Origin: Methanofollis liminatans DSM 4140
Lineage (GTDB): Archaea; Halobacteriota; Methanomicrobia; Methanomicrobiales; Methanofollaceae
NCBI RefSeq assembly: GCF_000275865.1
Contig: NZ_CM001555.1
Span: 1,453,099 to 1,517,098, forward strand
Reading direction: 5' to 3'
DNA: 64,000 bases
Shown: piece by piece, positions 7,925-29,690 of the stretch
Layout: the number at the start of each line of letters is the position of its first letter
Numbering within the stretch: the stretch's first letter is position 1
Program-made: the position numbers and the translations under genes
Notes under the pieces: generated by a model
Told to the model about the DNA's origin: nothing
The model's database searches: none
The model's input: only the letters and a program-made list of their open reading frames with translations

Positions 7925-8580
7925 ATACATGCTCAACCTGATTTCCCGTACGCTCACACAACGCCGCCCCCGGCCCCCCGCATACAATTGCCCCAGGACA
8001 TGCGAGGAGGGGCCGGGCGGCGCATCTGGCGATGAAAACTGATGGGTGGGCGTGCCGGCGTGTCTTGTCCATCCCTGCCCCAATCGCAATCGGCGGGGGA
8101 CCGGGGGCGGGCGAGGCCCCCCGGTACCGGCGTACCCTGATATCCCGTACACGCACACAACGCCCACCCCGTGCCGGGGGTTGCACCCCCGGACCCGCAT
8201 ATACGATTGCCCTGGACTTGAGGGAGCGGGAGGGCGGAGCATATCTCGATAAAAAATGATGGATGGACGTGCCGGCGTGGTTTGCCTGTCCCCGCCCCAA
8301 TCGCAGTTTTATGGGGCGGCATGCCCCCCGGCAGGGTTTTGCTTGATTTCCCGTACGCTCACACGACGCCCGCCTCTGCCCGGGGGTTGCACCCCCGGAC
8401 CCCTGCATGCGATTGCCCTGGATATGCGGGGACGGGAGGGCGGAGCATCTCTCGATGAAAAATAATGGACGATCATGCCGGCGTGGTTGTCCATCCCTGC
8501 CCCAATCGCAACCGGCAGGGGGTCCGGGGGGCGGCAGGCCCCCCGGTAGAGAGGCAGAACCTGATTCCCGTACACTCACG
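7925..8580 (-). repeat. Tandem array of family A repeats (about 210-bp units)
   Basis: This 750-base gene-free gap holds one partial, two full and one partial copy of a unit of about 210 bases, with unit boundaries near 8035, 8250 and 8457. Each unit carries the box GCCCCAATCGCA, a variable G/C hairpin of the type CCGGGGGG-N7-CCCCCCGG, a TCCCGTAC-CTCAC box, a second hairpin CCGGGGGT-TGC-ACCCCCGG (8174-8192 and 8380-8398) and a GGGCGGAGCAT-CTCGATGA box. The same family appears inverted at 1-290 and 29310-29690. Long minus-strand frames here are translations of the repeat. Confidence 0.85.
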
Positions 8581-15614: not shown

Positions 15615-16748
15615 ATGAGTGCGGGAAGCTACTATGATGTCCTCGGCGTCGCCCGGGACGCCGGCGACCAGGAGATCAAGAAGGCATACCGCAACCTTGC
15701 ACGCAAATACCATCCCGATGTCTGCAAGGAGCCTGACGCGGAGGAGAAGTTCAAAGAGATCAACGAGGCCTATTCGGTCCTCTCAGACGCGACCAAACGG
15801 GCGCAGTACGACAACATCGGCCATGACGCCTTCAAGAACGCCTCGAAGGGCTCGTACACCGGTGGCGGCGGCTACGGCGGCGGGTTCCAGTCCGACTTCA
15901 GCGGCTTCGGAGACATATTCGACACCTTCTTTGGTGGCGGCGGAGGGGCGAGAGGTCCGCGGCCGGGTGCCGATCTCCTCCTTCGCCTCTCGATCAACCT
16001 GAAAGACGCCGTCTTCGGAATCGATCGAGAAGTCGAGGTCTTCCACACGGAATCGTGCCCTGAGTGCGACGGCACCGGGAGCAAGACCAAAAAAGTCCAC
16101 ACCTGCCCGACCTGCGGCGGGAGCGGTCAGATCAGGCAGGTGAGCCAGTCCCTCTTCGGCCAGTTCGTCAGGATGTCCACCTGTCCGGCATGCGGCGGCC
16201 GGGGCAAAAAGCCAGAAGAACCCTGCAAAACCTGCGGCGGCAGCGGCCACACCCGCGTGAAGCGGAAGGTGAACGTCCATATCCCGCCGGGTGCCGATAC
16301 CGGGATGCGCCTCAGGATGGAGGGGTATGGCGAGGCCGGAGACTACGGCGCCCCGGTAGGCGACCTCTATATCGAGCTGATTGTAGAGGGTCACCCAAGG
16401 TTCGCCCGAACGGGAGACAACATCGAGACCGAGGCCCAGATCTCGCCGGCACAGGCAGCGGTCGGGTCCAGCGTCGAGGTGAAGACGATCGACGACCGGA
16501 CGGTGGACTTAAAGATTCCGGCCGGGATCCAGCACGGCACCGCCCTGCGCATACCCGGCGAGGGCGTGCGGCGGCGCGGGCGCCCGGGCGATCTCCTGGT
16601 CCGCGTGCGGATCGTCGTGCCAAAGAGCCTCTCCGACGAGGAGCGGGAACTCTACCAGAAACTCCTTGAGATCGAGAATAAGAAGGGCCCGGGGAAAAAG
16701 GGCTTTTTCAAGGATTTCGTCGATAAGGTGATGGGGCAGGAAGATTAG
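15615..16748 (+). CDS. dnaJ: Chaperone protein DnaJ (type I Hsp40)
   Basis: This 377-residue co-chaperone stimulates DnaK and delivers substrates. The J domain (about 5-70) carries HPD in [14 protein letters not shown]-rich linker follows ([19 protein letters not shown]). Four CxxCxGxG zinc repeats are present: [24 protein letters not shown] and CKTCGGSG. C-terminal beta domains end [15 protein letters not shown]. All parts of a type I DnaJ are present. It closes the chaperone operon, with an oligo(T) run just after the stop. Confidence 0.98.
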
Positions 16749-16761: not shown

Positions 16762-16915
16762 GTTATCTGCACTTGATTGGATCTCTTTCATGGAATGCCG
16801 GGGGAGCTGGAGATTGGCGGGCCCCCGTAAAGATCGTGCATTTTTGCTTTCGCCGGGCCAGGTCCCGAGGGCGAACCAACAACAGGAGAGCACGAGGAAT
16901 GAGATCAGGAGGAGA

Positions 16916-17516
16916 CCGGTCAGGCGCGGGAGACGCTCATCCATCTGGTGAAAAGTATCCGCGCACCCGTTGCCGGATCAGAAGCATCATCAAAAATATT
17001 TCACGCAACACACCCCGCCAAATACGGGATATATCCAATTTAATCTGATATTAATATCCAGATAATGAATTGGAGCCCAGAAACAAATACGAGATATTTA
17101 TATGCAATAATATAAACTATTAAATACGCCCGAAATAGCATAGTACATGTGGCATCTCTCATGCCGTTGTCAGGATCCGTGGCGGGGAAAAACGCATAAT
17201 TTAGCGACAGTTGCCTGAAAAGTTGCCATTCAGGCATTTTACCAACGATGGAGCACTGCACGCCCCCCTCTCGCTAAATCGATCCCATAACTATGGCATA
17301 GCATGGAAATACACCTCTCAAAACGTGCTTTCGATTCACCAGAACGATCCGTTGCGCAACGACGCGACCGGTCATGGGGTTGCCGCACTTTCCAGATGTT
17401 GTGTGATTCCTCCTTTCAATGAAATCAACACACTCCTATAATTTTTCACGGTGGGGATGATACGGGATTATCGCTACCCCACATCCCCATTGTTTACAAA
17501 ATAATGATTAGAAATA
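16916..17516 (+). repeat. Duplicated 600-bp element, copy 1 (candidate non-coding RNA locus)
   Basis: This AT-rich block has a second copy 920-921 bases downstream (17836-18437) with almost no length change. It contains a TATA box TTTATATG (17097-17104), a hairpin GGCAT-CTCTC-ATGCC (17151-17165), and a hairpin TGCCTGAA-N9-TTCAGGCA (17212-17236). A 59-base stretch (17339-17397) is identical in both copies and includes the palindrome CGTTGCGCAACG (17350-17361) and GACCGGTC. A TATAATTTTT end follows. Frames shared by the two copies do not show better protein than DNA conservation, so I treat it as non-coding. Confidence 0.75.
17106..17450 (+). ncRNA. Candidate non-coding RNA, copy 1
   Basis: This is the inferred transcript of the duplicated element, with approximate ends: start about 25 bases after TTTATATG and end at the oligo(T) near 17450. 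It includes both hairpins and the 59-base invariant core. No known RNA family was recognised. In the stem at 17212-17236, a T-A pair here is a C-G pair in copy 2, a compensatory change, although the adjacent pair is lost in copy 2. Confidence 0.35.
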
Positions 17517-17524
17517 TCGGCTTT

Positions 17525-17762
17525 ATTGAAACTCCCATACCGAGCTTGATGTCTCCCCTGTAATCGCAGGGAGGGAGCGCGGATCCCCCGCCTTCCCCCT
17601 CCTGCCTGCCGGGAGTTGCACCCCCGGACCCCACGTGCGATGGGCCCCGGGAAGAGCAACCAGGACATCCAGGGAGAGGGCGTGCCGCATCCACACCTAT
17701 CCTGAACGGGGGTCCGGGGGCAGCAGTCCCCCGGCGCAAGCACGCCAGAATAAGATTTCATA
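17525..17762 (-). repeat. Family B repeat
   Basis: A unit of about 235 bases lies between the two copies of the 600-bp element. Its reverse complement matches 28360-28592 over nearly its full length, and in part 29140-29310. It carries two G/C hairpins: CCGGGGG-CAGCAGT-CCCCCGG near 17712-17735, and an imperfect CCGGGAGT-TGC-ACCCCCGG near 17606-17625, the motif also found in family A. The conserved edge reads GATTACAGGGGAGAC and CTCGGTATGGGAG in the other copy. Confidence 0.75.
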
Positions 17763-17835
17763 CCAGCCGAAATATCTTTACGGCAGCACAGGCATCGGGT
17801 TTTTGCAAATTGTTCCAGAAATGTGCGGTCATCTC

Positions 17836-18437
17836 CCGGTCAGACACTGGAGACGCCCCATCATCTGGTGAAAAGTATCCGCGCATCTGCGGCGGGAGCA
17901 GGAGCAGTATCAAAAATATTTCATGCAACGTATCCGACCGAATATAAAATATATCCCATTTAATCTGATATTAATCCCCCAATCCCGAATTAAGATCCGG
18001 CAAGAAATATGAGGGATTTATATGCAAGAATATAAACGATTAAATACGGCCCAGATGGTACAGTACATGTGGCATCTCTCATGCCGTCGTCAGGATTCGT
18101 GGCGGAAACAAACGCGAAATTCAGAGACAATTGCCCAGAAAGTTGCCATTCGGGCATTTACCTCAACGATGGAGTACTACATATCGTCCTTTCGCTAAAC
18201 CGATTCCTTAACAATGGCATAGCTGAGAAACTCACCTCTCAAAACCTGTTTCCAACTCTCCAGAACGATCCGTTGCGCAACGACGCGACCGGTCATGGGG
18301 TTGCCGCACTTTCCAGATTTTGTGTGATTCCTCCTTTGAATGACACCTAGATATCCCTATAATTTTTGACAGTGAGGACGGCACGGGATCATTATCCCCC
18401 TACGCCTCCATTGTCTGAAAAAGAATTATTAGAAATA
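17836..18437 (+). repeat. Duplicated 600-bp element, copy 2 (candidate non-coding RNA locus)
   Basis: This is the second copy of the element at 16916-17516. It has the same TATA box (18017-18024), the GGCAT-CTCTC-ATGCC hairpin (18071-18085), a stem at 18132-18156 (TGCCC paired with GGGCA), the 59-base invariant core (18260-18318) and an oligo(T) end. Just past it and just before it, GCGGTCATCTCCC occurs (about 17825 and 18485). At the right-hand site these bases are the stop region of the lipoprotein gene, so the duplicated segment seems to include or abut that gene's 3' end. Confidence 0.75.
18026..18370 (+). ncRNA. Candidate non-coding RNA, copy 2
   Basis: This is the inferred transcript of copy 2, with approximate ends by analogy with copy 1. 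Both structural stems and the invariant core are retained while the surrounding sequence has diverged, which suggests selection on the RNA or on a DNA-binding site in the core. Confidence 0.35.
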
Positions 18438-18488
18438 CCTTCCCTCATGAAGCGCCCTGGCTTTCTCCATCGCTTCAGGAATATGCGG

Positions 18489-19529
18489 TCATCTCCCAGA
18501 GGTGCCGAATGAGGCGGCCACGAGCATCATCTCTTCTTTATCGGCCAGGCCCTCGATCCTGAACGCCGTCGTGTTTTCCGTCCAGATGAGGGCGTTTGTG
18601 TCGGTCCCACCATAATAGGCGCCCTCCAATCCATTCACCAGAAGGCGCTGGGCCTGCCCCTCAGGCGGGTTCGAATCAGGGAGATCGGCGGGGCGCACGG
18701 TGATGCTGAACGTCGTCCCGTTCTTCTGGTAGACCATTATGGTGGAGAAGGCGGGGAGGCAGGAACCACCGATGAAGGCATATTCCCCGGGCAGATGGGG
18801 GAGGGGGACGTCGAAACACCGCTCTGCCGCCTCCAGGGTCGCGGCATGGATCGGGGTGACCGCATAGGTGCGCATCAGGGTGATCGCGGTCCCTTCCGGA
18901 GGGGCAAAAGAGAAGGCATCGGCAGGAAGGACGACCTCCGTGAAATCTTCGAAGGTTACCGCCATCACCCCTCTCCCTGCCGGGTCCAGGAGGGTGAGGC
19001 CCTCTATCTCCCCTCTCTTGGGGTCGACGGAGAGCGCGATCCGCTCGACCGCATCGTGCATCCGGGTCGGGGCGAAACCGAGAATCCCGTCACCGGCGAT
19101 CTCGATCCTCCCGTCCGTCCGGGTGCAGGTGACGTTGCCGTCCAGAAGGCTCTCTTGCAAAAGATCGAGGGCGTACAGCATCGCCCTGACCGATCTGCCG
19201 GCGCCGTTCCAGACCGCACCGGCGTACATGGACGGGACCACCTCAGCGCGCCCCCCGGCCGGATAGTAGGTCCAATGCCGACGTCCGTCGTCGGAGACGA
19301 TCGTCCCGTTCGAGAATTCGGCCAGATACCGCCCGTCATCCGCCGCCGTGATCAGAAATGCGGTTTCTTCGCCGTCCATGAAGACCGTGACGCCGGCAGA
19401 CCAGTTCGAAGGTACGGCCACGGCGCATGACGTCCCGGTGCTGCCGTAGCGTTCCCCGGCATCGGTGCACCCTGCACAGAGGACCGCACAGGCCAGCACG
19501 CAGAAGGTGAAAACGGTTCGAACCGACAT
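18489..19529 (-). CDS. Secreted lipoprotein, LolA-like with DUF4367-like tail
   Basis: This 346-residue protein has a signal peptide and lipobox (VLACAVLCAGC), so it should be exported and anchored by a lipid at the cysteine near residue 21. The middle part (FLITAADDGRYLAEFSNGT through LSVDPKRGEIEGLTLLD) resembles LolA/LppX-type beta folds. The last 110 residues (MVYQKNGTTFSITVRP, then ALIWTENTTAFRIEGLADKE) resemble DUF4367. This pair of domains is common in cell-surface proteins and its ligand is unknown. A TATA box at 19554-19561 makes the message nearly leaderless. It stands alone, with the repeat region downstream. Confidence 0.7.
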   Translation of the reverse strand: MSVRTVFTFCVLACAVLCAGCTDAGERYGSTGTSCAVAVPSNWSAGVTVFMDGEETAFLITAADDGRYLAEFSNGTIVSDDGRRHWTYYPAGGRAEVVPSMYAGAVWNGAGRSVRAMLYALDLLQESLLDGNVTCTRTDGRIEIAGDGILGFAPTRMHDAVERIALSVDPKRGEIEGLTLLDPAGRGVMAVTFEDFTEVVLPADAFSFAPPEGTAITLMRTYAVTPIHAATLEAAERCFDVPLPHLPGEYAFIGGSCLPAFSTIMVYQKNGTTFSITVRPADLPDSNPPEGQAQRLLVNGLEGAYYGGTDTNALIWTENTTAFRIEGLADKEEMMLVAASFGTSGR

Positions 19530-19553
19530 CTCGAAGGGAGCATCGCAGGAGAC

Positions 19554-19561
19554 TATAAAAA
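19554..19561 (-). promoter_or_regulatory. TATA box of the lipoprotein gene
   Basis: TTTTTATA on the minus strand is centred 28 bases before the ATG at 19529. It predicts a start of transcription at or next to the start codon. Confidence 0.5.
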
Positions 19562-19586
19562 GAGGGGCCCTGTCGCGCCGTCTCTT

Positions 19587-21677
19587 TCAGATCAGCCGCA
19601 CGATCCCCCGCCGCGGCTGCATCGCCTCGCCGAAACGCATCATCCGCTCGATCTGCTCCTGCACCTCATCGCGCTCGTAGCCCTCGCCGGCGAGTCGCTC
19701 GACGACCTCGGCGATCCGTGCCGTGCCGTCGTCGCCGCCGAGATCCTTGATCGTCTCCTTGATGGTGCGGATGATATCGCGCTTCTTCTTCGTGATCCCG
19801 CTGGTCCATTTATCGATGTCCAGGGTCCCGGTCTCGGCGTCGTAGGCCACCTGCCGAAGACAGGTGTCCACGATCTTGATCACCCGCTCGGCGTCCCGCG
19901 CCTCCACAAACGGCGAGAGGCGGATACGGGCCGAGGCCTCGCCCAGGCGGATCAATGCCTCCAGCTGGCGGGCCGTCACCGGCACCGGTTTGTTGTCGTC
20001 GGCAAGGCCCCGGAGACGGAGATAGTAGGCGATGAGCATCTCCTTTGCCCCGTCGGTGATCAGGGGGTTGATGTTCCGCTTCGCATAGGCGACGTACTTT
20101 CTCAGCACCTCAGGGGCGATCGGCGGTTCCACGGCCACGCTCTCCGCGGCAAGGAGTTCGGCGTGCCCCTCTGAGAGGGGACCGGCCGACGCCTGCAGGA
20201 TCAGTTCCCCGACCCGGTGGGCCTTGACGATATGCTCGGCGATCGCCGTGTCCCGCGCCTTATCGGGCGTGTCGGTCATGATAAAGATCAGGTCGAAACG
20301 GGAGAGCAGGGATGGAGGCATGTTGATCTGCTCGGCGATCGGGACGAAGGCGTCGAACCGGCCGAGTTTCGGGTTCGCCGCCCCGAGAAGGGCGCAGCGC
20401 GACCGCAGGGTCGCCGTCATCCCGGCCTTTGCGATCGAGATTGTCTGCTGCTCCATCGCCTCGTGCAGGGCCGATCGGTCCTCCTTCGCCATTTTGTCCA
20501 TCTCATCGACGGCAGCGACCCCCATATCGGCGAGCACCAGGGCACCGGCCTCGAGCGTCCAGCTCCCGTCGCCGAAATCATCCTTGACGGCCGTTGCTGT
20601 CAGGCCGGCCGAGGTCGAGGACTTGCCCGAGGTGTAGACGCCCCGCGGCGAGAGCTGCACCACGTAGCGGAGCATCTGGGACTTCGCGATGCCGGGGTCG
20701 CCGACGAGCAGCATGTGGATGTCGCCGCGCAGGCGCGAACCGTCCGGGAGATCCTTTGCTACGCCGCCGAAGAGCTGGAGGGCGATCGCCTCCTTCACCT
20801 CGAGGTTGCCGTAGATGGACGGGGCGATCGACCCGGTGATCATCGGGTAGAGAGCCGCCTCCCGGGACAGCGCCCGGATCGCCGCCTCGTCCTCCTCTGA
20901 AATGTTCACCTCCTCATACTCGCGCTCAGGCGCCTCGGCCGAGGAGCAGTCGAGATAAATATCGAAGAGCGTGGACTTTGTTCCGTAGTTGACGCGCTGC
21001 TTCGAGCGGAGAACGCCATTGAGCACCACCCGGTCGCCGGGTGCGATCATGCCGGTGAGGTCGTCGGTCATCTCCACGTCCAGGGTCTGCGGCCGTTCGC
21101 CGCCCCGCAGCCCTTCAGGCGATTCCTGTATCCTGACCTTCTGCGAATCGACGAACCGGGATTTTCCCGGAATGAGTTTGAGTTTGCGGCGGTTGCACTC
21201 AGGGTTCGGGCAGTTCTCCGGCTCCTCAAAGGTGCCGTAGCCCTGCGCCAGCGTCACGGTGGCGCCGCACCCCGGGCACTGGAAGACCGCCTCGATGATC
21301 CTCGGCCTCACCTCGGTCGTCTTCCTGATGATCCCTTTCACCGAGACGAAGCGGGTGATGTGGTAGGCCCTGATGTCCCGGATCCCGGTGATCCGATCGA
21401 TGTGGTGGAAGCGGATGTTGATCCGGCCGATCTTATCTTCGCCGATGATCGAGACCTGGCGAAGGGCGTCCCTGATGTCCCCTGTCGCCTTTCCCGGCCG
21501 GTCGATCATCTCGTCGGCAAGGCGCAGCCCTGACCGGCCCGATGCCTGCAGGGTCTGGTAGTCGATATAGAGTGAGCGTTTGAATGGGAATTCGCGCTCG
21601 ATCTCCGCGAGTTCCCGCCGGCAGTAGCGGGAGAGGAAGGCCACCCACTCCCCGACCACATCGGTGACCTCGCCCAT
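19587..21677 (-). CDS. mcm: Replicative helicase MCM, paralogue 2
   Basis: This 696-residue hexameric DNA helicase subunit has an N-terminal domain with a zinc motif (C134, C137, C156, C161) and an AAA+ core. The core has Walker A GDPGIAKS (326-333), Walker B MGVAAVDEMDKM and the arginine finger in SRFDLIFIMTD. A winged-helix-like tail ends MQPRRGIVRLI. All catalytic motifs are intact. It starts two bases after the stop of a second MCM gene, in the order rfcS-mcm-mcm. The AAA+ core is nearly identical in DNA sequence to its neighbour while the N- and C-terminal parts differ, so this is an old duplication with possible gene conversion. Confidence 0.95.
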   Translation of the reverse strand: MGEVTDVVGEWVAFLSRYCRRELAEIEREFPFKRSLYIDYQTLQASGRSGLRLADEMIDRPGKATGDIRDALRQVSIIGEDKIGRINIRFHHIDRITGIRDIRAYHITRFVSVKGIIRKTTEVRPRIIEAVFQCPGCGATVTLAQGYGTFEEPENCPNPECNRRKLKLIPGKSRFVDSQKVRIQESPEGLRGGERPQTLDVEMTDDLTGMIAPGDRVVLNGVLRSKQRVNYGTKSTLFDIYLDCSSAEAPEREYEEVNISEEDEAAIRALSREAALYPMITGSIAPSIYGNLEVKEAIALQLFGGVAKDLPDGSRLRGDIHMLLVGDPGIAKSQMLRYVVQLSPRGVYTSGKSSTSAGLTATAVKDDFGDGSWTLEAGALVLADMGVAAVDEMDKMAKEDRSALHEAMEQQTISIAKAGMTATLRSRCALLGAANPKLGRFDAFVPIAEQINMPPSLLSRFDLIFIMTDTPDKARDTAIAEHIVKAHRVGELILQASAGPLSEGHAELLAAESVAVEPPIAPEVLRKYVAYAKRNINPLITDGAKEMLIAYYLRLRGLADDNKPVPVTARQLEALIRLGEASARIRLSPFVEARDAERVIKIVDTCLRQVAYDAETGTLDIDKWTSGITKKKRDIIRTIKETIKDLGGDDGTARIAEVVERLAGEGYERDEVQEQIERMMRFGEAMQPRRGIVRLI

Positions 21678-21679
21678 CG

Positions 21680-23803
21680 TTAGAACTCCCGCTCAAAGAG
21701 CCTGATGATGCCGGGCCGCGGCTCGATGACCTCGCCCTGGTTTTTGAGCATCTTCAGGGTGCCTTCGACCTTGTCTTTCGTAAAGCCCTGTCTGATCATC
21801 TCCTCGATCACCTGTTCGAGGTTTGCGGACCCGTCGTCGCCGCCGACGTCCCTGATGATCTCCTTCACCGTCCTGATGATGTCCCGCTGCCGTTTCGAGA
21901 CCCCGGTGGTCCATTTATCGATATCGAAACTTCCCGACTCGGCGTCGTAGGCCACCTGACGGAGGCAGGTGTCGACGATCTTGATCACGCGGTCGGCGTC
22001 CTCCAGTTCGATCGTCGGCGAGAGACGGACGCGGGCCGAGGCCTCGCCCAGGCGGACCAGCGCCTCCAGCTGACGGGCCGTCACCGGCACCGGCTTGTTG
22101 GTGTCTGCAAGGTTTCTGAGGCTGAGATAGTAGTCGCGGAGTTTCTCCCGCGCCTCGGGCTGGATCGTCGGGAAGCAGTTCCGCTTCGCATAGGCGATGT
22201 ACTTCCGGAACAGGAGAGGCTCGATGTCAGGGGTGACGGGCTTGAGCTCGCGCTGGATGTACTCGTCGGTCACCCCTTCCATCGGCATCCGCTTGCGCTT
22301 TTCGATCAGTTCCCCGACCGAGTGGGCCTTGAGGATGTGGTCGGCGATCGCCATGTCGCGGGCCGAGTCGGGCTTGTCGGTCATGATGAAGATCAGGTCG
22401 AAACGGGAGAGCAGGGACGGCGGCATGTTGATCTGCTCGGCGATGGGAGCATACTCATCGAACCTCCCCATCTTCGGGTTCGCCGCCCCGAGGAGGGAGC
22501 AGCGCGACCGCAGGGTCGCCGTGATCCCGGCCTTTGCGACCGAGATCGACTGCTGCTCCATCGCCTCGTGGAGGGACGACCGGTCCTCCTTGTCCATCTT
22601 GTCCAGTTCGTCCACCGCCGCCATGCCCATGTCGGCGAGCACCAGGGCGCCGGCCTCGAGCGTCCAGCGGCCGTCGCCGAAATCGTCCTTGACGGCCGTT
22701 GCCGTCAGGCCGGCCGAGGTCGAGGACTTGCCCGAGGTGTAGATCCCCCGCGGCGAGAGCTGCACGATATACCTGAGGAGCTGGGACTTTGCGATACCCG
22801 GGTCGCCGACCAGGAGGACATGGATATCGCCGCGCAGGCGCGACCCGTCCGGCATCTCCTTTGGGATCCCGCCGAAGAGCTGGAGGGCGATCGCCTCCTT
22901 GACATCGTCGTTGCCGTAGATCGTCGGGGCGATGGAGCGGGGGATCTTCGAGTAGATCTTCGGGTCCCTGGAGAGTTCGAGGATCGCCGCCTCGTCCTCA
23001 TCAGAGATGTTCACCTCTTCAAACTCCTTCTCGGCCACCTCGATGGCGTTGCATTCGAGGTAAATGTCAAAGAGCGTGGACTTGGTTCCGGCGTTCACCC
23101 TCTGGAACGACCTGAGAATGCCGTTGATGATCACCCGGTCGCCGGGGGCGGAATCGCCGGTGAGGTCGTCGGTGACGTCCACGTCGAGGGTCTGCGGTTG
23201 TTCGCCGCCGCGAAGCCCCTCGGGCGACTCCTGGATCCGCAGCTTCTGGGCGTCCACGAAATCGGATTTTTCCGGCACCAGTTCGAGCGGGGTCTTCTTC
23301 TGGCAGGTGGCGCAGAGGCGGAAGGGCTCCTGGAACTTCCCGTACTTCTGCGGGTACGGGGGCGTGATCTGCCCGCACTCCAGGCACTTGAAGACCGCCG
23401 AGGTGACCCTGGGCCGCACCTCGGTCGTCTTCCTGAGGATGCCCTCCACCGAGACGAAGGTGTTGATCTGGTTCGACCTGATGTCCCTTATCGCCGTCTT
23501 GCGGGTGAGGTTGGTGAACCTGATGTGGATGCTCGACCGGTCCTTCTCCTCGATCACACCCAGGCGCACCAGGGCGTCCTTCACGTCGCCCATCACCTTC
23601 TCGGGCTTTGCGATGAGCTGGTCCGCGAGGGAGAGGCCGCGTTTGCCGAAGGCTTCGAGGTTCCGGTAGTCGATATAAAAGGAACGTTTGTGGGGGAACT
23701 CTTTTGCCAGCTCCACCCGCTCCCGTTTGTTGTACTGGCGCTTGAGAAATGTCTCCCAGTCGCTGACGACGTCGGTCACTTCAGTCTGCTGACGGTCTGA
23801 CAT
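21680..23803 (-). CDS. mcm: Replicative helicase MCM, paralogue 1
   Basis: This 707-residue MCM has a zinc motif C140, C143, C164, C167, Walker A GDPGIAKS (333-340), Walker B with VDELDKM (397-403) and SRFDLIFIMTD (466-476). GGAGGTACAG lies just before the ATG. It is 59 bases downstream of rfcS. Archaea usually carry one essential MCM and any extra copy is commonly part of a mobile element. Here both copies sit head to tail in a replication operon and both look active, so a mixed hexamer or a split of tasks is possible (inferred). Confidence 0.95.
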   Translation of the reverse strand: MSDRQQTEVTDVVSDWETFLKRQYNKRERVELAKEFPHKRSFYIDYRNLEAFGKRGLSLADQLIAKPEKVMGDVKDALVRLGVIEEKDRSSIHIRFTNLTRKTAIRDIRSNQINTFVSVEGILRKTTEVRPRVTSAVFKCLECGQITPPYPQKYGKFQEPFRLCATCQKKTPLELVPEKSDFVDAQKLRIQESPEGLRGGEQPQTLDVDVTDDLTGDSAPGDRVIINGILRSFQRVNAGTKSTLFDIYLECNAIEVAEKEFEEVNISDEDEAAILELSRDPKIYSKIPRSIAPTIYGNDDVKEAIALQLFGGIPKEMPDGSRLRGDIHVLLVGDPGIAKSQLLRYIVQLSPRGIYTSGKSSTSAGLTATAVKDDFGDGRWTLEAGALVLADMGMAAVDELDKMDKEDRSSLHEAMEQQSISVAKAGITATLRSRCSLLGAANPKMGRFDEYAPIAEQINMPPSLLSRFDLIFIMTDKPDSARDMAIADHILKAHSVGELIEKRKRMPMEGVTDEYIQRELKPVTPDIEPLLFRKYIAYAKRNCFPTIQPEAREKLRDYYLSLRNLADTNKPVPVTARQLEALVRLGEASARVRLSPTIELEDADRVIKIVDTCLRQVAYDAESGSFDIDKWTTGVSKRQRDIIRTVKEIIRDVGGDDGSANLEQVIEEMIRQGFTKDKVEGTLKMLKNQGEVIEPRPGIIRLFEREF

Positions 23804-28359: not shown

Positions 28360-28592
28360 GTTGAAATCCCATTCTGGCGCACTTATGGCGAGAGACTGCT
28401 GCCCCGGACCCCAGCCCAGGATAGAGGAGGATACGGCACGCTCCCGCTCCGGACGTCCTGGTCGCTCTTCCGGGACCCATCGCAATGAGGAGCCCGGGGG
28501 TGAAAACCCTGGCAGGCAGCATGGAGAAGGCAGAGGGATCCGCGCTCCCTCCCTGTGATTACAGGGGAGACCTCAAACTCGGTATGGGAGGT
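28360..28592 (+). repeat. Family B repeat
   Basis: This is a near full-length copy of the unit at 17525-17762, in the opposite orientation. It begins TTGAAATCCCATTCTGGCG and ends near CTCGGTATGGGAGGTTC. The second hairpin is imperfect here (CCCGGGGGTGAAAACCCTGG). Confidence 0.75.
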
Positions 28593-28624
28593 TCAAAAAG
28601 CCCCCGAAATCACCGTTGCATCTT

Positions 28625-29139: not shown

Positions 29140-29690
29140 CCCTGTTGAAATCCCATTCGGGCGTGCCTGCGCCGGAGGACTACGCCCCTGGACCGCCGCT
29201 CATGATAGGCAGGAATACAGTAACTCTCCCCCCGGACGTCCCGTTCGCTCTTTTCGGAGTCCATCGCAATTGGGAGTCCGGAGGTGAAACCCCCAGCGCG
29301 GTGCGGGCGTTGTGCGACCGCATGAAATTTCAGGGTACGCCTCTGCCGGGGCCTGCCGCCCCGTAAAACTGCGATTGGGGCAGGGACAGGCAAACCACGC
29401 CGGCATGACCGCCCATCATTTCTCATCAAGAGAGGCCCCGCTCCTCCCGCCCTCGCATATCCAGGGCAATCGTGTGCGGGGTCCGGGGGTGCAACCCCCG
29501 GCGCGGGGCGGAGGTTGTGTGCGGGTACGGAATCAGATTCTCCCTCTGCCGCGGGGCCTGCCGTCCCTTAAAACTGCGATTGGAGCAGGAACGGGCAAAC
29601 ACGCCAGCCGGACCATCAGGATTTTTTCATCGACAGATGCTCCGCCCGATCCTTCCCCGCATGTCAGGAGCAATCGTGCGCGCGGAGTAA
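29140..29690 (+). repeat. Family B half-unit joined to family A units
   Basis: A family B left half (29140 to about 29310, TTGAAATCCCATTCGGGCG) runs straight into family A sequence at about 29310. One full unit and one partial unit of family A follow to 29690, with a G/C hairpin at 29483-29501 (CCGGGGGT-GCA-ACCCCCGG). The join suggests that the two families share a breakpoint or recombine. From 28736 to 29139 and from 29691 to 29975 I see no gene. Confidence 0.75.

Follow-up and report, generated by a model that had tools for sequence, protein, structure and literature searches.

A tandem pair of genes, most probably for a new structured RNA family, in Methanofollis liminatans

Introduction

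The question raised by this locus is what two tandem copies of a sequence of about 600 bp, lying between dnaJ and a pair of mcm genes, represent in the genome of Methanofollis liminatans DSM 4140 (G000, 2.48-Mb chromosome). The window, that is the whole stretch of 64,000 nucleotides that was analysed, contains both copies, and the relatives compared were G003, G006 and G007. A sequence-only reading had proposed a pair of unknown non-coding RNAs or a protein-binding locus. The RNA half of this proposal has been strengthened by the copies found in relatives, by the fold of the plus strand and by a closing helix that is kept, and a protein-binding locus is unneeded; conservation does not lie in the parts singled out at that time (a palindromic 59-base core, the box TTTATATG and a second stem). 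It is considered probable, on the basis of models of sequence and folding, that the two copies are each a plus-strand gene whose product is a structured non-coding RNA, and the pair would most probably be tandem genes of a new structured RNA family of Methanofollis without an Rfam entry. The general kind, an intergenic regulatory RNA, is already known.

The duplicated element and its neighbourhood

Pairwise alignment of positions 16916-17536 with 17836-18457 gave 489 identities in 622 positions (79%) and a single 1-base indel, which bears out the almost indel-free duplication described earlier; the oligo(T) ends claimed for it were also found, as T-runs in both copies. A genome search returned these two sites as the only matches to the element within the 2.48-Mb chromosome, far past chance. 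The units and their neighbours are as follows.

15615-16748, plus strand: dnaJ, one flank of the element pair
16916-17516, plus strand: copy 1, whole repeated unit, 79% identical to copy 2 with one indel
17836-18437, plus strand: copy 2, whole repeated unit, ortholog of the single G003 copy (94% to G003:C1:57236-57855, 74% to G007:C98:18271-18775)
18489-19529, minus strand: lipoprotein-like gene of 346 aa, adjoining copy 2
19587-21677 and 21680-23803, minus strand: adjacent pair of mcm genes, beyond the lipoprotein-like gene

The flanking genes converge on the element, thus it is no gene's promoter region. Its G+C content is 44% vs 62% for the window. The lipoprotein-like gene is missing at this place in G003 (18525-19576 absent), and a remnant of 78-100 aa is left in G007. 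The two mcm proteins are about 66% identical to each other, and in G008, G009 and G010 mcm (one or both) is split by about 1.1 kb into two matching pieces, a hint of inteins. Intergenic repeats rich in G+C, of the GGGGTCCGGGGGC type, lie at 17518-17830, 28362-28602, about 8172-8400 and 29478-29502; the one between copies 1 and 2 is about 82% identical to 28362-28602, in inverse orientation. Such repeats may have helped the duplication of the element.

Coding capacity and known families

In each of the six frames, first, second and third codon positions have taken up about equal numbers of substitutions, with no codon periodicity, and a coding element was rejected on these position-specific counts, in agreement with the earlier statement that the frames common to both copies do not conserve protein better than DNA. 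A meaningful Pfam match was obtained neither for the element nor, of any kind, for a 205-codon frame of G007. When the whole window was searched against Rfam at gathering thresholds a tRNA was the only match, and at permissive thresholds (E up to 5) the element gave chance-level matches only; for the curated families RNase P, SRP RNA, C/D box RNAs and riboswitches no score of the element rose above the gathering threshold. A viral or plasmid origin was rejected after collections of phages, plasmids and viral contigs had returned no matches.

Distribution and history

The search for further copies in related genomes, which had been suggested for this locus, was successful: five copies of the element are known across four Methanofollis genomes, every one next to mcm. 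G003 and G007 each hold one copy in the same place, 94% and 74% identical to copy 2 respectively. The fifth, far more diverged copy was detected in G006 (E 1.5e-8) when 232 genomes of the order were searched with a sequence model covering the 3' half; its place is immediately downstream of mcm with no dnaJ alongside, and for this reason the element belongs with mcm. No homolog was present downstream of mcm in seven other Methanofollis, a structure model run across the 232 genomes recovered only the five known copies, and weak sequence-model matches in other genera were dismissed when the structure model did not confirm them. Within Methanofollis, the putative gene accompanies the 3' end of mcm in some members of the genus.

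The distances between copies (copy 1 to copy 2, 0.198; copy 2 to G003, 0.053; copy 2 to G007, 0.27) indicate a duplication older than the split of G000 and G003. The G003 genome is without exactly 16848-17517, that is, copy 1 is precisely absent. The comparison is most simply read as a tandem duplication that predates the split, with copy 1 later lost in G003; instead of such a loss, copy 1 may have been gained from another strain. With G007 as outgroup, 54 sites have changed in copy 1 vs 28 in copy 2.

The 59-base tract

The sequence-only reading had described an invariant 59-base core with the palindrome CGTTGCGCAACG.

17339-17397, plus strand: 59-base tract of copy 1, the same in copy 2 and attributed to gene conversion
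18260-18318, plus strand: 59-base tract of copy 2, identical to copy 1, read as a gene-conversion tract

The identity between the copies is real (0 differences), but the tract is not invariant in evolution, with 2 differences in G003, 11 in G007 and 31 in G006, and the palindrome inside it is destroyed in both G007 and G006, so that it was given up as a conserved feature and the palindromic core as the functional centre. Since the distance to copy 2 is elsewhere about four times as great for copy 1 as for G003, the 59-base identity appears better explained by gene conversion between the two G000 copies. Tandem copies can mislead in this way: their longest common stretch reflects gene conversion, and the functional parts emerge only with distant relatives.

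The predicted RNA core and its closing helix

When all five sequences are compared, the most conserved blocks are two ends of a core (UGUGGCA...UGCCGCA), which are mutually complementary over 7 + 10 bp; the core, ends included, measures 238-242 nt in every sequence.

17148-17387, plus strand: RNA core of copy 1, 240 nt, closed by the terminal helix in the consensus fold
18068-18308, plus strand: RNA core of copy 2, 241 nt, closed by the terminal helix in the consensus fold
17148-17166, plus strand: 5' arm of terminal helix P1+P2, copy 1; P1 invariant, P2 kept in G006 via compensating changes
17369-17387, plus strand: 3' arm of P1+P2, copy 1; P1 invariant, P2 kept in G006
18068-18086, plus strand: 5' arm of P1+P2, copy 2; P1 invariant, P2 kept in G006
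18290-18308, plus strand: 3' arm of P1+P2, copy 2; P1 invariant, P2 kept in G006

P1 (UGUGGCA/UGCCGCA, 7 bp) is invariant in the five sequences, and P2 (UCUC[A/G]UGCCG with its 3' partner, 10 bp) is kept in G006 through a double change from A-U to G-C, two changes from U-G to U-A and a shifted bulged U, a shift which the comparison of this helix assumes. Although 9 of the 24 bases of the G006 3' arm have changed, the duplex energy is still -28.4 kcal/mol; random changes reach this energy with p 0.00035 when placed anywhere and p 0.0046 when placed outside P1, and with p only 0.054 when the changed positions are fixed and the letters drawn at random. As to the covariation check that had been suggested, the terminal helix is kept in G006 with compensating changes (p 0.00035 to 0.054, depending on the null model), and formal pair counts in four sequences were not significant.

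Against resampled alignments preserving conservation and dinucleotides, the consensus fold of the plus strand reached z -4.06 with four sequences (0/400) and -3.62 with five (0/300), in contrast to the antisense strand, for which z was -1.5 and -1.2 respectively and not significant. Folds of single sequences give modest values (z -1.1 to -2.8), and the interior helices are poorly conserved and less certain than the terminal helix. Two stems described earlier were recovered: a GGCAU/AUGCC hairpin is present and lies in the 5' arm, where it can form locally in competition with the closing helix, and the second stem shows both the T-A to C-G change and the broken neighbouring pair as claimed, but it is broken in G007. 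A predicted folded RNA of about 240-300 nt is the most likely product of each copy according to these models.

Two other explanations meet the evidence at this point. The conserved ends might be terminal inverted repeats of a miniature transposable element, the unit having moved as DNA, and indeed imperfect inverted repeats, some 240 bp from each other, form the core ends of an element that is duplicated and patchy in distribution; nevertheless there are two tandem copies in the genome and no dispersed ones, every ortholog sits at mcm, the duplicated unit measures about 600 bp and not 240, conservation extends past both supposed ends (to the TATA box, the upstream box and the tail hairpin described below), and the aligned sequences, inspected by eye, show no short target duplication at the copy-1 junction. 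This explanation is regarded as very improbable. Hardly more credit is given to a functionless relic or slowly decaying intergenic sequence, for example a dead gene, for which one could quote a mean divergence of 6% and 26-27% vs 7-10% and 23-35% at fourfold sites, the lipoprotein-like neighbour that is absent in G003 and partial in G007, and the larger number of changes in copy 1. Conservation, however, is clustered, with identical runs of 28 and 27 bases vs G007 (p 0.013 and 5e-5) and few indels; near-perfectly conserved blocks recur in the far G006 homolog, the helix and its spacing are maintained, and no frame shows past coding.

Promoter-like and upstream boxes

The following boxes precede the core of the putative structured RNA.

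17120-17127, plus strand: predicted TATA box TTAAATAC of copy 1, 28 nt before the core, with a presumed promoter role
18040-18047, plus strand: predicted TATA box TTAAATAC of copy 2, 28-29 nt before the core, with a presumed promoter role
16942-16954, plus strand: upstream box CATCTGGTGAAAA of copy 1, 12-13 bases kept in five copies
17862-17874, plus strand: upstream box CATCTGGTGAAAA of copy 2, 12-13 bases kept in five copies

The TATA box proposed at the outset, TTTATATG, is present in both copies, but it reads TTTGTATG in G007 and is absent in G006. About 23 bases downstream of it lies the conserved TATA-like box TTAAATAC, identical in all five copies and 28-29 nt upstream of the core, a spacing that would fit an archaeal TATA box with an RNA start at P1. 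The CATCTGGTGAAAA box precedes the predicted RNA core by about 200 nt in the five copies (one of its positions being L097 7135-7147), which is beyond ordinary promoter range.

The conserved upstream box, the linkage to mcm in four genomes and the AT-rich composition of the element would suit a DNA-level locus near mcm, either a protein-binding or a replication-related site. Such a locus predicts neither strand-specific folding nor the maintenance of pairing over 240 bp, conservation does not extend to the palindrome, and a replication origin was rejected because no orc1/cdc6 gene is adjacent, the nearest of five being about 100 kb away. A site acting as DNA is thus judged quite unlikely, and a structured RNA remains the preferred reading of the element.

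Invariant loop and 3' tail

The putative RNA has two further conserved motifs outside the closing helix: ACCUCUCAAA, which lies within the core and is the same in all five sequences, and AUUCCUCCUnUnAAUGA, which lies 3' of the core. Both resemble the anti-Shine-Dalgarno end of 16S rRNA.

17313-17322, plus strand: invariant ACCTCTCAAA of copy 1, candidate pairing loop, identical in all five
18234-18243, plus strand: invariant ACCTCTCAAA of copy 2, identical in all five
17406-17422, plus strand: 3' tail ATTCCTCCTTTCAATGA of copy 1, conserved in five bar single changes, one mismatch weakening the hairpin
18327-18343, plus strand: 3' tail hairpin ATTCCTCCTTTGAATGA of copy 2, conserved, with CCUCC in the loop and loop bases predicted unpaired

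The mean unpaired probability of ACCTCTCAAA is 0.98 in copy 1, 0.85 in G006 and 0.54-0.57 in copy 2, G003 and G007. AUUCCUCCUnUnAAUGA can form a hairpin with a CCUCC loop in four sequences, with a mismatch in copy 1.

A possible mode of action and the candidate target mtd

From the TTAAATAC box, transcription would start at or near 17148 and 18068 and give an RNA made of a core of about 240 nt with paired ends, followed by a short 3' tail with the CCUCC hairpin. ACCUCUCAAA, and perhaps also the CCUCC loop, could pair with Shine-Dalgarno regions and so mask ribosome binding on target mRNAs, among which mtd is the best candidate. This mode of action is put forward tentatively, as possible and well short of probable.

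Targets were sought in the four genomes as TTTGAGAGGT followed by ATG. Besides the elements themselves, mtd (F420-dependent methylenetetrahydromethanopterin dehydrogenase) is the only gene start common to all four with this arrangement; two more TTTGAGAGGT-ATG sites in G006 were discarded, as there are no real genes behind them. The family of mtd was assigned by NCBIfam, and its leaders in the four genomes all carry an identical TTTGAGAGGTGTATAGATG; the 28 conserved gene starts of the window served as a rough yardstick for leaders. ACCUCUCAAA is complementary to the mtd leader in four of four genomes, although in three sequences its predicted accessibility is no more than partial. In copy 1 the predicted pairing can be prolonged to 14 bp and in G006, where it runs over the start codon and contains one bulge, to 23 bp, at about -31 kcal/mol in both, a value matched by 2/1000 and 6/1000 shuffled flanks; in copy 2, G003 and G007 the extended pairing is absent. 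On these comparisons mtd stands as the best candidate target of the RNA.

The mtd leader itself holds an inverted repeat (UCUCAAA/UUUGAGA) on the ribosome-binding site, and relatives that lack the RNA conserve this leader to the same degree. This repeat, TTCTCAAAT..TTTGAGAGGTG, lies over the ribosome-binding site about 60 nt upstream of mtd, is near-identical in 12 of 12 Methanofollis and has similar counterparts in several further families of Methanomicrobiales; the repeat may be a hairpin that regulates this core methanogenesis gene in cis. Because the leader is conserved in Methanofollis whether or not the RNA is present, and is similar in other families, it did not evolve for the RNA.

The same RNA might act not by antisense pairing but by binding a protein, as a sponge or scaffold. 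There is a likeness between the invariant CUCUCAAA and UUCUCAAA, the 5' arm of the repeat in the mtd leader, as though one factor recognised the two, and that repeat is conserved across much of the order where the RNA is missing; set against this are the extended antisense pairing in copy 1 and G006 and the fact that the proposal is purely inferred, with no candidate protein. It is held to be unlikely, and pairing of an antisense type is kept as the working proposal for the RNA.

Relation to known regulatory RNAs

Bacterial small RNAs with C-rich loops, such as Staphylococcus RNAIII and the Rsa RNAs, pair with Shine-Dalgarno sequences. The Methanofollis element is similar to RNAIII and the Rsa RNAs in that CCUCC and ACCUC-type motifs are conserved and a hairpin loop carries one of these; unlike them, it matches no Rfam family and is predicted from sequence alone. 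In methanogens, sRNA162 of Methanosarcina mazei, 191 nt long, has an unstructured linker that masks a ribosome-binding site; RACE and Northern blots demonstrated that it is transcribed, and its target was put to the test (PMC3510493). Together with its homolog sRNA171 it offers a parallel for an intergenic methanogen RNA that comes as a related pair and is proposed to mask ribosome-binding sites through an unstructured stretch (PMC3510493). The predicted Methanofollis RNA is likened to it by description only and differs in its core of about 240 nt, its long closing helix, its genus and its neighbours.

Significance

In a limited literature search, characterised regulatory RNAs of methanogens were known only from Methanosarcina, and Methanofollis belongs to a different order. 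The locus offers a concrete candidate RNA gene: both copies could be removed, the core is defined, and the proposed target, which belongs to the main methane-forming pathway, can be tested. It is a speculative idea, rated unlikely as it stands, that an RNA family restricted to the genus represses mtd translation by pairing over the Shine-Dalgarno sequence and the start codon, on a leader repeat conserved in much of the order. If true, it would mean translational repression of mtd, whose product is central to hydrogenotrophic methanogenesis.
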